Source of the DNA: Melioribacter roseus
GTDB lineage: Bacteria > Bacteroidota > Ignavibacteria > Ignavibacteriales > Melioribacteraceae
Assembly: GCA_020722065.1 (NCBI GenBank)
Contig: DYLK01000014.1
Location: forward strand, 1-64,000
Reading direction: 5' to 3'
DNA: 64,000 bases
Shown: piece after piece, positions 36,409-50,387 of the stretch
How the letters are laid out: each line of letters opens with the position of its first letter
Position numbering within the stretch: position 1 is the first letter of the stretch
Notes under the pieces: generated by a model
What the model saw: the letters and a program-made list of their open reading frames with translations, nothing else
What the model was told of the DNA's origin: nothing
Databases searched by the model: none
Translations under genes and position numbers: made by a program

Positions 36409-36558
36409 TTATTTTGCTTTGGGAAAGGATTTTTGTTTTACTGATTCACGGAACTCCTTTGACAAACCACTTGTTTTCGGTCCAAATTGGTTTACAAAAT
36501 TATCTTTGAGAATTTGACCGCTTTCATCATTATTTCTATTCAAATTATTCTTTTTCAT
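36409..36558 (-). CDS. Possible 49-residue protein overlapping the NtrC-type regulator gene
   Basis: A 49-codon frame begins with ATG inside the last codons of the regulator gene (14-base overlap, frame-shifted) and ends TAA at 36409. The peptide starts MKKNNLNRNNDESGQILKD, contains NQFGPKTSGLSKEF and ends QKSFPKAK; it is hydrophilic and basic. The overlap resembles the coupled starts used throughout this window, which is the main support. It matches no family I know and has no ribosome-binding site of its own. Confidence 0.4.
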   Translation of the reverse strand: MKKNNLNRNNDESGQILKDNFVNQFGPKTSGLSKEFRESVKQKSFPKAK

Positions 36559-37918
36559 TTTTGATACCGTATTCATTTATTTTTCTATGTAAACCAGTTC
36601 TATCAATATTTAGAATTTCGGCTGTTTTTGAGATTTGCCAGTCGTTTTCTCGGAGAGTTTGCAAAATATATTGTTTTTCGAATTCAATTTTAGCTGTGTG
36701 TAAATCGTAAATTTTTTTCTCTGAAAACTCAAGTTTGTTATTTCCGCCGCCTCTTTCAAAACTACGAATTATATCAGAAACTTCGATAATCTGTTTGGAT
36801 GTAAAAATCATAAGATTATCAATTACATTTTTTAATTCGCGAACGTTTCCTTCCCATTTCTGATTCATTAATATTCCTTCAGCTTGTGGAGAAATTCTCA
36901 CAATATTTTTATCGTATTTTTCATTAAAAATAGATATAAAATGGTAAGCTAAAGGCAGAATATCTTCTGGTCTTTCGCGGAGTGGTGGAATGTGAATTTG
37001 AACAACTTTTAATCTGTGATAAAGATCTGCTCTAAATTTTCCTTTTTTGGATAATTCTAACAAATCCTGATTAGTTGCAGCTATTATTCTAACATCAACC
37101 TTTAGTGGTTTGTCTGAACCAATTCTCTGAATCTCATCATTTTCCAAAAATCTAAGTAATTTTGGTTGGAGACTAATATCTAAATCACCAATTTCATCAA
37201 GAAAAACAGTGCCACCATTGGATTCTTCTAAAATTCCTTTTCTATCAGATCTCGCGTCGGTAAATGCTCCTTTTAAGTGACCAAAAAGTTCACTTTCGAG
37301 TAATCCAGCAGGAAAAGAAGGACAATTAATACTTGAAAATTTTTTCTTATTTCTGTTTCCAAATTGATAAAGTGAATATGCAACCAACTCTTTGCCAGTT
37401 CCGGTTTCTCCAGTAATTAATACACGAGCACCACTTTTTGCAACTTGTAAAATATCTTGGCGTAGTTCGTTAATAATATTTGAGTTTCCAATAAAATATT
37501 CGGCAATGTTTGTTAATTCAGTATCTTTTCCACTTGGAAGAACTCTACGGACGCTAAGTTCCTTGTTTATTGCATCAATCAACTTGCTGTGTTCTACAGG
37601 TTTTTCTATAAAATTTACTGCACCTTTTTTAAGTAACTCAACAGCTATGTTAATTGTTCCAGTACCGGAAATTATGATTATCGGAATAGTTGGGTTTTTT
37701 GCTTGTATTTGGGAAATAAGCTGATCACCAGAAACCCCTGGCATTTGAATATCTAATAAAATAATTGAAATTTTATATTTTTCAACGTAGTCTATCGCTT
37801 CGAATGGATTAGAAAGTGTAATTACGCTAAAATTTGATAACTGAAGCAATTTTTTAATAGAATGTAAAAAAGATTCATCATCATCAATTGCTAAAATTGT
37901 AATTTGTTCATTGTCCAT
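36545..37918 (-). CDS. NtrC-family sigma-54-dependent response regulator
   Basis: The 457-residue protein has three domains. The receiver (~1-120) shows AIDDDESFLHSIKKLL and ILLDIQMPGVSGDQL, with the phosphorylated Asp near 56. The AAA+ domain (~145-385) has Walker A GETGTGKELVA, the sigma-54 contact loop GAFTDA, Walker B GGTVFLDEIGDL and the arginine segment GKFRADLYHRLKV. The Fis-type helix-turn-helix is NDWQISKTAEILNIDRTGLH followed by RKINEYGI. The loop is GAFTDA rather than the canonical GAFTGA. It lies 12 bases after the sensor kinase gene; sigma-54 itself is encoded at 48933-50387. Target genes are unknown. Confidence 0.92.
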   Translation of the reverse strand: MDNEQITILAIDDDESFLHSIKKLLQLSNFSVITLSNPFEAIDYVEKYKISIILLDIQMPGVSGDQLISQIQAKNPTIPIIIISGTGTINIAVELLKKGAVNFIEKPVEHSKLIDAINKELSVRRVLPSGKDTELTNIAEYFIGNSNIINELRQDILQVAKSGARVLITGETGTGKELVAYSLYQFGNRNKKKFSSINCPSFPAGLLESELFGHLKGAFTDARSDRKGILEESNGGTVFLDEIGDLDISLQPKLLRFLENDEIQRIGSDKPLKVDVRIIAATNQDLLELSKKGKFRADLYHRLKVVQIHIPPLRERPEDILPLAYHFISIFNEKYDKNIVRISPQAEGILMNQKWEGNVRELKNVIDNLMIFTSKQIIEVSDIIRSFERGGGNNKLEFSEKKIYDLHTAKIEFEKQYILQTLRENDWQISKTAEILNIDRTGLHRKINEYGIKNEKE

Positions 37919-45758: not shown

Positions 45759-46235
45759 TCAAGATTTTTTCTTGCTCATTTTTAATATTTCGTCAAATTC
45801 TTCTTTTTCAATTGGCATTATAGATAATCTGTTGCCTTTTTGTACAAGTTTCATCTTTTCTAACTTGGGATTTGCTTTTATTTCCTGTAAAGTAACTTTG
45901 TTTGCAAATTTACTAACAAATTGGATATCAACCATAAACCAAGTCGGATTTTTTTCATCACTTTTTGGGTCAAAATGTATGTCGTTTGGATTAAAGGCAG
46001 TAAAATCTGGATAAGAATTGCTACAAATTTCGGCTACACCGACAGCCGCTGGAGGTTCAGAATTACTATGATAAAAAATGACTTGATCTCCAATTCTTAT
46101 TTCATCTCTAAGGTAATTACGAGCTTGATAATTTCGTACTCCATCCCAAAATGTTGTTTTACTTTTCTCTAAGTCTTCAATTGAAAACGAATTGGGTTCA
46201 GACTTAAACAACCAGTATTTTTTATTATGTGCCAT
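45759..46235 (-). CDS. EVE-domain protein (PUA-like fold)
   Basis: The 158-residue protein starts AHNKKYWLFKSEPNSFSIED, the standard EVE/thymocyte-nuclear-protein-1 opening. WDGVRNYQARNYLRDEIRIGDQ (~32-53, key motif WDGVRNYQARN) and FYHSNSEPPAAVGVAEI (~56-72) are further signatures. EVE domains bind modified bases in DNA or RNA, and some fuse to restriction enzymes; this one stands alone. Start ATG 46235 fits the family; an upstream in-frame start at 46292 adds 19 residues with no family counterpart. A pair of palindromes lies upstream. Confidence 0.87.
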   Translation of the reverse strand: MAHNKKYWLFKSEPNSFSIEDLEKSKTTFWDGVRNYQARNYLRDEIRIGDQVIFYHSNSEPPAAVGVAEICSNSYPDFTAFNPNDIHFDPKSDEKNPTWFMVDIQFVSKFANKVTLQEIKANPKLEKMKLVQKGNRLSIMPIEKEEFDEILKMSKKKS

Positions 46236-46290: not shown

Positions 46291-46316
46291 AAAAGTGTTG
46301 AATAATTTCAACACTT
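46291..46316. promoter_or_regulatory. Twin palindrome, site 1 (TGTTGAA-TTCAACA family)
   Basis: Arms AAAGTGTTGAA and TTCAACACTTT form a perfect 11-bp inverted repeat with a four-base spacer, in the gap between the EVE gene (minus) and a tiny ORF (plus). A T run follows on the plus strand, but no upstream plus-strand gene needs a terminator there. Operator or bidirectional stem-loop are both possible. Confidence 0.6.
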
Positions 46317-46327
46317 TTTTTGTGAAA

Positions 46328-46345
46328 TGTTGAAGAAATTCAACA
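46328..46345. promoter_or_regulatory. Twin palindrome, site 2
   Basis: TGTTGAA-GAAA-TTCAACA repeats the core of site 1 with the same arm sequence and four-base spacer. Centres are 33 bases apart, about three helical turns, placing both on one face of the helix. The pair looks like a double operator. Confidence 0.55.
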
Positions 46346-46392
46346 CAAAAAAAATGTAGTGGATTTTTTAAGCTATTTATACCATTATTTTT

Positions 46393-46408
46393 TGGCACTA
46401 GTTTTGTA
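46393..46408 (+). promoter_or_regulatory. Candidate sigma-54 promoter
   Basis: TGGCAC-N5-TTGTA matches the sigma-54 consensus TGGCAC-N5-TTGCW at the -24 element exactly and at -12 with one change (GC to GT), with correct spacing. Transcription would start near 46418, about 80 bases before the 26-codon ORF. Confidence 0.4.
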
Positions 46409-46497
46409 ATTTTATAAATGTTCTTGAATTGATGCGAATCAAATAAAGACTAAATTGGGGAAGAAGTCGGCTGGTGACCGGATAGGAGGTCAAAAAA

Positions 46498-46578
46498 ATG
46501 AAAAAATCTTTATTGGATTCTAATATTAGGTATTTAAAATTAATTGGGTTTTGTTTAATAAGAGGGCTTTTTTTTTAA
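46498..46578 (+). CDS. Possible 26-residue peptide with a very strong ribosome-binding site
   Basis: The ORF is MKKSLLDSNIRYLKLIGFCL followed by IRGLFF and a TAA stop at 46576-46578. It is preceded by AGGAGGT (46484-46490), seven bases from the ATG, a perfect Shine-Dalgarno in a window where such sites are weak. TGACC (46475-46479) and GGTCA (46488-46492) could pair, partly covering that site. The peptide is basic and then hydrophobic, like a small membrane peptide or leader. It converges with the downstream PAS kinase gene, five bases apart. Confidence 0.45.
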   Translation: MKKSLLDSNIRYLKLIGFCLIRGLFF

Positions 46579-46583
46579 GGGAA

Positions 46584-48224
46584 TTATTTAGGAATTCTTA
46601 ATGTAAATATAGAACCCAATCCTAATTCACTTTCTACTGTTAAATCTCCACCTTGTTTTTTTGCTAAATCTTTACAAAGTAAAAGACCAAAACCGGTTCC
46701 TTTTTCATTTTCAGTTCCTGGAGTAGTGTGGAATTCATTCATTTTGAAGATTTTTTTGATATCTGAAACATGCATTCCTATGCCATTATCTTTAACAGAG
46801 ATGTAATGTGAGTTTTCGTCTTCTTTAAAAAGTATTTCAATTTTACCTCTTTTTCTAGTAAACTTTATTGCATTTACTATCAAATTTCTTAGAATGGTAA
46901 AAACATAATCTTCGTCGGCAATAATTGTTTGTTTTTCGTCAATTGAGCAAGAAATAACGATTCCTTTTTGCTTTGCAGAATCTGAATTAAGAGAAATAAC
47001 TCTACTACAAATTTGATATAACATTATATTTGTTGGATTATATACAACGCCACTTCTTTGGGCTCTTGACCACTCTAATAAGTCTTCAAGTAGAGAAAAA
47101 ATATTTTCAGAAGAAGATTGTATAGTTCGTATTGATTCTTTTACTTCGTCAATAGTAAATTCATTAAAACTTTCATTAAGCATTCTTGTCATTCCAAGAA
47201 GGGCAGTAAACGGACTTCTTAAATCATGAGCAATTATATTAAAGAATTTGTCTTTTGTTAAAATTTCTTCTTTCAGTCTTTTTTCACTTTCAATCAATTT
47301 ATGTTGAGCTTCACGGATTTTTGTTACATCACGAAAAATTCCTTCAATTGCCTCGGGTTCGCCTTTTTCGTTAAAAATAACTTTTGAGTTAAAAGAAATT
47401 AATTTTATAGAATTGTCCTTATCCCTCATTTCTGTTTCGAAATTTTTTATAGAGCCATTTTTCAATATTTCTGCTAAAAACTTTTCTCTTCCTTTTGAAT
47501 CTTTATAAAAAATTTCTGATGGCTTCCCAATTAATTCTTCGGGTTTATATTGTGTTACAAAAGAAATAGAAGGACTAATAATTTCAATTATTCCCTGTAT
47601 AGAAACACGGTAAAAAACATCGATAAGATTTTCAAAAATACGTCTATACTTTTGCTCGCTTTTCTTTAATTGTTCCTCGGTTAATTTTTTTTGTGTAATA
47701 TCATCCTTAATAGCAATAAAATGTGTAATAATACCATCATTATTTTTAATTGGTGAAATTGCTACGCGTTCCCAATACAATTCTCCATTTTTTCGCTTAT
47801 TATGTAACTCGCCCGTCCAATCTTTTCCACTTTTTATTGTTTGCCAAAGATCTTTGTAATAGTCTTCGCTTTGTTCTCCAGATTTTAAGATTCTAGGATT
47901 TTTATCAAAAACTTGTTCAAACAAAAAACCTGTAATTTTTTCAAATTTTTTGTTTACATACTTAATATTTCCGTCTGCATCAGTAATAACAATTGAGCTT
48001 GAACTCTGTTCTGCAGCCCGAGAAAAAAGAATCAACTGTTTTTCGACATTTTTTCGTTCAATAAGTAGATTTTTTAGTTCATTTGTTTGTTGATCAAGTT
48101 CACTTTGTAGCATCAACTTAATTTTTTCTAAATCCTTTTTAAGTTGCACGCAATCAGAATTAGAAATCTTTTCGGTTATTTTTGCAATTTCATCAACTTT
48201 TTTCTTTATAAGATTCTTAGACAT
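46584..48224 (-). CDS. Cytoplasmic PAS-domain sensor histidine kinase
   Basis: The 546-residue kinase has no membrane segment. A coiled coil occupies ~1-65. The first PAS/PAC is ~75-190 (SSIVITDADGNIKYVNKKFE; WTGELHNKRKNGELYWERVA), and the second is ~195-310. HisKA has FFNIIAHDLRSPFTALLG with the phosphorylated His near 334. HATPase has LIVNAIKFTRKRG, VKDNGIGMHVSD and GTGFGLLLCKDLAKKQGG. No response regulator gene is adjacent, so it is an orphan; it could feed the NtrC-type regulator elsewhere in the window but nothing shows that. Confidence 0.9.
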   Translation of the reverse strand: MSKNLIKKKVDEIAKITEKISNSDCVQLKKDLEKIKLMLQSELDQQTNELKNLLIERKNVEKQLILFSRAAEQSSSSIVITDADGNIKYVNKKFEKITGFLFEQVFDKNPRILKSGEQSEDYYKDLWQTIKSGKDWTGELHNKRKNGELYWERVAISPIKNNDGIITHFIAIKDDITQKKLTEEQLKKSEQKYRRIFENLIDVFYRVSIQGIIEIISPSISFVTQYKPEELIGKPSEIFYKDSKGREKFLAEILKNGSIKNFETEMRDKDNSIKLISFNSKVIFNEKGEPEAIEGIFRDVTKIREAQHKLIESEKRLKEEILTKDKFFNIIAHDLRSPFTALLGMTRMLNESFNEFTIDEVKESIRTIQSSSENIFSLLEDLLEWSRAQRSGVVYNPTNIMLYQICSRVISLNSDSAKQKGIVISCSIDEKQTIIADEDYVFTILRNLIVNAIKFTRKRGKIEILFKEDENSHYISVKDNGIGMHVSDIKKIFKMNEFHTTPGTENEKGTGFGLLLCKDLAKKQGGDLTVESELGLGSIFTLRIPK

Positions 48225-48932: not shown

Positions 48933-50387
48933 ATGTTATCCCTTCAACAGAAAATGTCGCTGCAACAAAAACTTTCACCGCAGCAAATTCAATATCAAAA
49001 ATTATTACAACTAAACAATCTTGCGATGGAACAGAGAATTAAAACAGAATTGGAAATGAATCCTGTTTTGGAAGAAATTCCAGAATTGGAGCAATTAGAA
49101 TCCGATTTGAATTCCGCAAATGAAGAAAATGATTCAAACGAAAATGAAGATTTTGATGAAGATAATCCCGAATTTGACATTGATGATTATGTTAATGAAG
49201 AAGATTTGGAATTTGCACGTGTAAATCGCTCTGCCGATGACGAACACAATGTTCCAATTGCACCTCAGAGAAACACGCTTACAGAACATCTACTAGAGCA
49301 ATTGCAATTGTTAAATTTTTCGGAAATAGAGCAAATAATCGGCGAAAATATTATTTGGAGTTTAGATAATGATGGTTATTTGGGCGAAGAATTGTCGGAA
49401 ATTATTGAAAGAATTTCAGAAGTTGAGAACATTAAAATTCCTTTAGAAAAAGCAGAGGAAGTTTTATATGAAATTCAGAGATTAGACCCAATTGGAATTG
49501 CTTCCCGTTCTTTGCAAGAATGTTTAGTTATCCAAATGGAAGAATCTTCTTTTGACCCTTTTTATAAGCTAATTGCAGAAAAAATCTTAAAAGAAGAATA
49601 TGAAAATTTTACAAACAAACGTTTCGATTTAATCAAAAAAAATCTTCAACTAACTGAAGACTCTGTACGAGTAGCAATAAAATTAATTCAGAAATTAAAC
49701 CCTAAACCAGGTGAAGGAAATATTTCATCTGAACTTGCAAATCAAGTAACGCCAGATTTCATTATCGAAAAAGTTGATAACAATTATATCATTACATTAA
49801 ACGATAAATTTATGCCATCGGTAACGATTAGTCAGGCTTATGTAGAAATGCTTGATGAAGGGAAAAAGAAAAAGAAAAAAACAGAACCAGATAAAGCAGC
49901 AAACAAATTTCTAAAAGAGAAAATTGATTCAGCCAAATGGTTTATTTTTTCTATCGAACAGCGCAGACAAACGTTAATCAAAATAATGAAAGCAATATTT
50001 GAAAAACAACGCGAATATTTTGAATACGGTGCAAGAGCATTAAAACCAATGATTTACAAAGATATTGCCGATAAAATTGAAATGGATATTTCTACCGTTA
50101 GTCGAGTTGTACGAGGAAAATATGTGCAAAGTATTCATGGAATAAACGAGCTTAAATTCTTTTTTAGCGAAGGATTGCAAACAGATGATGGCGAAGAAAT
50201 TTCGAACAAACATATTAAAGAATTGATAAAAGAAATTTGCGAAAACGAACCAGCAAAAAAACCTTATAGTGATGACAAAATAGCTAAAATTCTACAAGAA
50301 AAAGGAATTCACATTGCACGTAGAACAGTTGCAAAATACAGAGAACAACTCGGAGTGCCAGTAGCGAGATTGCGAAAAGGGTTCTAA
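48933..50387 (+). CDS. rpoN: RNA polymerase sigma-54 factor
   Basis: Sigma-54 directs RNA polymerase to -24/-12 promoters and needs an AAA+ activator. The 484-residue protein has the glutamine-rich region I (LSLQQKMSLQQKLSPQQIQY, ~2-21) that blocks open complex formation, an acidic region II (~55-95), the core-binding region (~110-250), a helix-turn-helix region and the RpoN box ARRTVAKYRE (~466-475). The window also encodes an NtrC-type activator, giving a complete control pair. It shares the TAATG junction with the next gene. Confidence 0.96.
   Translation: MLSLQQKMSLQQKLSPQQIQYQKLLQLNNLAMEQRIKTELEMNPVLEEIPELEQLESDLNSANEENDSNENEDFDEDNPEFDIDDYVNEEDLEFARVNRSADDEHNVPIAPQRNTLTEHLLEQLQLLNFSEIEQIIGENIIWSLDNDGYLGEELSEIIERISEVENIKIPLEKAEEVLYEIQRLDPIGIASRSLQECLVIQMEESSFDPFYKLIAEKILKEEYENFTNKRFDLIKKNLQLTEDSVRVAIKLIQKLNPKPGEGNISSELANQVTPDFIIEKVDNNYIITLNDKFMPSVTISQAYVEMLDEGKKKKKKTEPDKAANKFLKEKIDSAKWFIFSIEQRRQTLIKIMKAIFEKQREYFEYGARALKPMIYKDIADKIEMDISTVSRVVRGKYVQSIHGINELKFFFSEGLQTDDGEEISNKHIKELIKEICENEPAKKPYSDDKIAKILQEKGIHIARRTVAKYREQLGVPVARLRKGF

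Follow-up and report, generated by a model that had tools for sequence, protein, structure and literature searches.

The element studied here (46393 to 46577) lies in the genome of an uncultured Melioribacter-like bacterium, which is 2.38 Mb in size and is represented by 69 contigs. The stretch of 64,000 nucleotides that was analysed is called the window and has a G+C content of 30%. A 348-base spacer in the window contains the element. On one side is a gene for a PAS-PAS-HisKA-HATPase histidine kinase (46584 to 48224, minus strand), which is convergent with the element, and on the other side is a gene for an EVE-domain protein (45759 to 46235, minus strand, with the start at 46235 being assumed), which is divergent from it. 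An earlier note on this DNA placed rpoN and an NtrC-type activator nearby, and both are indeed encoded in the window. The rpoN gene, for sigma-54, is at 48933 to 50387 on the plus strand. A response regulator of the NtrC type, which has a domain for sigma-54 activation, is at 36545 to 37918 on the minus strand.

Two tandem, near-identical palindromes, TGTTGAA-N4-TTCAACA (46291 to 46345, assigned to no strand), are present between the element and the EVE-domain gene. These are the dyads seen upstream of the promoter-like site. They are able to pair with each other, look terminator-like by eye, and could be either terminator-like structures or possible regulator sites. The terminator scan did not report them. 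Dyads of another kind, around AGACGGGGACGTCT and related to each other, were found in spacers of two different contigs (L081:270-303 and L146:7538-7572), and these are perhaps a small dispersed repeat.

The element was previously described as a candidate sigma-54 promoter that feeds a 26-codon ORF with the strongest ribosome-binding site noticed. The letters that were reported are all present on the plus strand. TGGCAC-N5-TTGTA, in which N5 is TAGTT, is at 46393 to 46408, AGGAGGT is at 46484 to 46490, and the ATG at 46498 begins 26 codons, MKKSLLDSNIRYLKLIGFCLIRGLFF, that extend to 46578. A comparison of the leader and ORF in related genomes had been called for, and in a sister species of the same genus, G003, neither the ORF nor the ribosome site is conserved. 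There the frame from the ATG reads MKISLFDYSSKY and then reaches a stop after 12 codons. Six codons ahead of this stop are different, each with an altered residue, and AGGAGGT is replaced by AGGTGGT. The window has three copies of AGGAGG ahead of a start codon versus 2.5 in shuffles, and six copies of AGGAGG in all versus 8.2. Such pairs are thus at chance level, and a strongest ribosome-binding site is not supported. A Shine-Dalgarno (SD) word of 4-5 bases is found within 20 bases before the start codon of 8 of the 51 protein genes of the window, the start codons being mechanical guesses. The Bacteroidetes, a neighbouring group, have been described as being without SD sites in a paper whose main text does not name Ignavibact- or Chlorobi (PMC6847099). 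A 16S rRNA was sought in the assembly for an anti-SD check and none was found. Based on the comparison with G003 and on the base rates of AGGAGG and SD words, the peptide gene was rejected, and the 26-codon peptide is probably not real.

The leader was also thought to hide the ribosome site in part by pairing of TGACC with GGTCA. These letters do pair in the predicted fold of the window leader, but the energy of the hairpin is ordinary (z -1.0 and z -0.55 in two fold tests) and in G003 the letters are CGTCC and GGTAA, so that the pairing is lost. A hairpin that conceals the ribosome site was rejected since it is not conserved.

Of 58 relatives searched at the DNA level, G003 alone has the full element (85% identity over 219 bases), and the next best match covers 34 bases of G008 (E 2e-5). 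From 46390 to 46583, 167 of the 192 aligned bases are identical in G003 (87%). Other spacers are 87-88% identical, with one 85-base spacer at 94%, while a 1009-base stretch holding two small ORFs is 89% identical and protein genes are 88-95% identical. The core of the element (46458 to 46491) is 82% identical. Because the identity of the element is that of an ordinary spacer, plain conservation is no argument for function. The core pattern was found with up to three mismatches in two of the 58 genomes. The remaining three members of the genus have the EVE-domain gene with different neighbours, and the core is absent from them at up to three mismatches.

Two RNA models of the element were used to search larger sets of genomes. 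In 79 genomes of the family, the first found the host (G000) and G003 and then, weakly, 11 genomes (E 0.013-0.96). In 164 genomes of the order, the second found the same two and then six others (E 0.00015-0.044). The element is carried by two of these 164 genomes. Alignments were inspected for ten of the weak matches, and gene context was inspected for L094 and L151 only. The best weak match of the order search, in G065, was rejected as it lies inside a long ORF that appears cysS-like by eye. The match in L094 was counted as chance because it is mostly outside larger ORFs and its alignment is without the G-rich core. The exact core occurs in GTDB genomes on contig DYSW01000027.1, which belongs to G003, and inside two long ORFs of unrelated bacteria. 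There is a single copy of the element in the host genome at E <= 0.001, no match was obtained by blastn in plasmids or phages, and the exact core pattern was not found in viral contigs. A mobile element was therefore dismissed. No Rfam 15 family matches the element over the gathering cut-off of its covariance model. The element was not taken for 6S RNA, for which a search of the genome itself gave two weak matches elsewhere, below the cut-off, or for SRP RNA, which was found at another place in the genome. A text search of the literature found none on noncoding RNA in Ignavibacteria and, judged by title, none on small RNAs of Melioribacter roseus.

The G-rich core of the element (46455 to 46493, plus strand) is part of a G+C island at 46448 to 46493. 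In 489 kb of the host genome, consisting of two sets of stretches and the window, there are five islands between genes that reach 60% G+C or more in a 34-mer, and the element is among them. The other four are tRNA-Arg, tRNA-Leu, RNase P, and 23S rRNA. The G003 copy of the island reaches 68% G+C. Islands of 59% are the SRP RNA, a second 23S piece, another tRNA-Arg, tRNA-Phe, and one unassigned leader (L140:2009-2056). Islands of 56% include more tRNA and 5S pieces and five that are unassigned, some of which look like dyads or like the possible ends of coding regions. The leader at L140:2009-2056, which has no Rfam match at the gathering score, shows two apparent hairpins with its flanks and lies before a gene that, read on the minus strand, appears flagellar hook-type-like by eye.

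The G's of the core appear to be frozen. None of its 17 G's is changed in G003, versus 21 of 113 elsewhere in the same spacer and in other spacers (Fisher P 0.040), and 6 of its 22 non-G bases are changed versus 95 of 788 (P 0.045); both tests were post hoc and were chosen after the data had been seen. The core contains a possible small hairpin, CUGG-NNN-CCGG (46471 to 46481, plus strand), with the same stem letters in both species and with changes within its 3-base loop.

The core is flanked by two arms, GAATCAAATAAAGA (46436 to 46449) and TCTTTATTGGATTC (46507 to 46520), that can form a stem, P1, on the plus strand with 13 of 14 pairs and an A.G mismatch. Of 500 shuffles, 7 give a Watson-Crick stem of 13 of 14 pairs, and stems of this size are common (87 of 100 shuffles) when G-U pairs are allowed. 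In G003, 13 pairs are kept despite three changes (null about 5%). One C-G pair has become U-G, the A.G mismatch has become A-U, and one terminal G-C pair has been lost. No pair is changed on both sides between the two genomes, and there is no real covariation because only two genomes carry the element. In both species, P1 is missing from the fold that has the lowest energy for the whole RNA. The free fold has -27.5 kcal/mol versus -23.7 kcal/mol with P1 forced, and in G003 the values are -21.9 and -21.2 kcal/mol. The 91-base region around the core, folded alone, has a z of -2.08 in the host genome and -1.2 in G003 on the plus strand. A run of nine T's follows AGAGGGC (46568 to 46576) and is seven bases before the stop codon of the convergent kinase gene. 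The terminator scan reported no classical terminator hairpin before this run.

The site at 46393 to 46408 is part textbook and part not. Canonical sigma-54 promoters have GG at -24 and TGC at -12 (PMC4641369), and the window site has TGGCAY (46393 to 46398, TGGCAC) and the spacing in common with them. G003 has TGGCAT-N5-TTGTA, and the N5 spacing to the TTG is thus identical in both species. At -13/-12, GT is present instead of GC in the window and in G003. The exact promoter letters occur once in the window versus 0.02 expected in its shuffles, in a test that was made post hoc. No sigma-70-like promoter was found on the plus strand by a scan at the element.

GT at -12 was taken as an exclusion of sigma-54, and this was dropped when the sites of the genome itself were listed, since its own intergenic class is also without C. 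TGGCAY-N5-TTGNW is present at 31 places genome-wide, and 30 distinct ones of these were examined. Ten of the 30 are intergenic. Counts for 14 other spacings, taken in 43.4 kb of spacer and scaled to the whole genome, would predict about 1.5. The P value is about 3e-5 for the nine other than the window site. The genome-wide list replaced an apparent 10-to-1 excess of this spacing, which was inflated; the spacing tables overstate the excess in the host genome because most of the sampled stretches were picked around motif matches. At -12, the ten intergenic sites have A (four), T (five), G (one), and never C, whereas canonical promoters have C after TTG (PMC4641369). Both TTGC matches of the genome are inside open frames (471 and 524 codons). 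A same-strand gene is downstream of seven of the ten intergenic sites, at 11, 26, 27, 28, 29, 56, and 134 nt. Four are 26-29 nt before start codons, and the products there are KaiC-like, HSP20, DUF3108, and one without a Pfam match (27 nt). An adhesin-like protein is also among the products downstream of the class. A further site, TTGAC and hence outside the pattern, precedes by 26 nt the second Met of a gene that resembles one for a flagellar rod protein, with a Pfam score just below the cut-off, and another is 28 nt before FliL, within an upstream open frame. Because the class is in excess between genes and is without C at -12, the site at 46393 to 46408 is a plausible sigma-54 promoter by the standard of the genome itself, not by the textbook one. 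The sigma-54 promoter that was first proposed thus stands in its letters and as a likely member of this class, and its -12 half is non-canonical.

The main rival to an RNA gene is a spacer without function, in which a chance -24/-12-like match is beside a drifting G+C-rich remnant and nothing is produced. This is a serious possibility, even if it is judged to be unlikely. The identity to G003 at the level of ordinary spacer agrees with it, as does the absence of the element from the other relatives searched. Three of the ten intergenic class sites, including the one in the window, have no same-strand gene downstream and may be there by chance, and the adjoining kinase gene is already broken in G003 (L031:6090-7182), where it is a pseudogene with two in-frame stops, seen by eye, and a 657-base deletion. 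However, the other islands of at least 60% G+C in the 489 kb are all known RNA genes, the G's are frozen while their neighbours change, and the promoter spacing is kept in G003. The decay of the kinase gene bears on two other points as well. The element was thought to be beside the PAS kinase gene, which it is, and the two need not be linked because the kinase is broken in G003 while the element is retained. The same decay counts against an RNA from the minus strand, either a long 3' UTR or a 3'-derived RNA of the kinase transcript that would extend to the palindromes at 46291 to 46345 and present a C/U-rich loop. The tandem hairpins are about 240-290 nt beyond the kinase stop, the minus-strand fold beats shuffles by a wide margin (z -4.29), for the most part probably because of the palindromes, and in the host genome the 91 bases around the core have a z of -3.88 there, a lower value than on the plus strand. 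In G003, that z is only -0.90 and P1 loses pairs on the minus strand. This fall in z, the way in which the promoter points, and the broken kinase gene of G003 favour the plus strand, and a minus-strand RNA is considered improbable.

A messenger under sigma-54 control for a basic-hydrophobic peptide of 26 codons, with its SD site partly hidden in a hairpin, has in its favour the letters, spacing, and ORF that are present in the window. It is highly improbable given the early stop, the residue changes, the altered SD site, and the lost pairing in G003, and given that AGGAGG-start pairs are at chance level with SD words before so few of the window genes. The promoter itself could be of another type. 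TAGTTTTG at 46399 to 46406 is an exact match to TAnnTTTG, the -7 box of a Bacteroidota-type housekeeping promoter, and TAnnTTTG is found 14 times upstream of window genes versus 5.2 times in shuffles. Boxes of this kind are 19-29 nt before the starts of window genes at 869, 7021, 13294, 30336, and 46235. These counts suggest, weakly, that the lineage has a Bacteroidota-like housekeeping promoter, and the evidence is weak because the antisense count is equally high (13). The element has G as the first n, a base that hardly ever occurs there in Flavobacterium promoters, for which the consensus has been revised to TAHHTTTG (PMC6847099), and this consensus is matched neither by TAGTTTTG in the window nor by TAGTATTG in G003. 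A housekeeping promoter in place of sigma-54 is thus unlikely here. The likelihoods given to these readings do not sum to one because the last one is a statement on the promoter alone, and an RNA gene could equally have a promoter of that kind.

The explanation that is considered best, at slightly short of an even chance, is that 46393 to 46577 on the plus strand is a lineage-restricted gene for a small non-coding RNA of the sigma-54 type, with the empty spacer as the main rival. A small regulatory RNA had been offered as one option for this locus. It is favoured by the G+C island, by G's that stay frozen, and by the persistent stem, and it remains a candidate. We infer transcription, its start, end, and strand, the sigma-54 dependence of the site, and all function from these features. 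The promoter TGGCAC-N5-TTGTA would fire from about 46418, about 12 nt after the G of the -12 half, once an enhancer-binding activator has acted. The RNA would be about 160 nt (46418 to 46577) and would end close to the run of T's that precedes the convergent kinase gene. In it, the A/U-rich stem P1 may present a segment, about 56 nt long and rich in purines and G, with several GG tracts. This exposed segment is the likely working part, and pairing with C/U-rich stretches of target mRNAs would be the simplest use of it. Binding of a protein would be less likely than pairing with mRNA.

Small RNAs that depend on sigma-54 include Qrr in Vibrio, CrcZ and NrsZ in Pseudomonas, and GlmY in enterobacteria. 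The element resembles them in being a putative gene for a non-coding RNA that lies between other genes and follows a -24/-12 promoter, in a genome that encodes rpoN and an NtrC-type activator. It differs from them in having no Rfam match and no C in the -12 half. RNAs such as CsrB and RsmY sequester CsrA or RsmA. CsrA is encoded in the host genome, and the window copy has four GGA in or near the G-rich loop, but the G003 copy has two, of which one is at a shared core position. The GGA are thus not conserved, the repeated sites are too few, and a CsrA sponge was rejected. The element can also be compared with the candidates of GC-IGR screening, which are G+C-rich spacers that stand out (PMC6429828). 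Here there is an island within an A+T-rich spacer. GC-IGR is a screening approach, not a family, and its candidates in that paper come from other bacteria.

It would be a larger claim that this is a new genus-restricted, sigma-54-dependent regulatory RNA in Ignavibacteria, with a G-tract core on a long A/U stem, and that the lineage also has its own promoter dialect, with a -12 half that is mostly TTGA or TTGT and not TTGC. The two together are doubtful. If true, a sigma-54-controlled small RNA would be added for a little-studied branch related to Bacteroidota, and a search for the textbook GC at -12 would miss sigma-54 promoters in that branch. In addition, a tempting strong ribosome-binding site with a short ORF could, in an SD-poor genome, in fact be the G-rich core of an RNA that is non-coding. 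A dialect with A, T, or G and never C at -12 is possible for the host genome on the basis of its sites. It is at most hinted at elsewhere because one relative is without an excess and another has one only for a looser motif. In a 400 kb sample of G012, there is no intergenic TGGCA-N6-TTG, and TGG-N8-TTG occurs nine times versus 2-11 times at other spacings, which is no excess. In a 400 kb sample of G046, the TGGCA sites number two, versus 0-2 at other spacings, and both have G. In the same sample, TGG-N8-TTG occurs 21 times versus 6-13 times at other spacings, and the next base is A in 10, G in five, T in four, and C in two.
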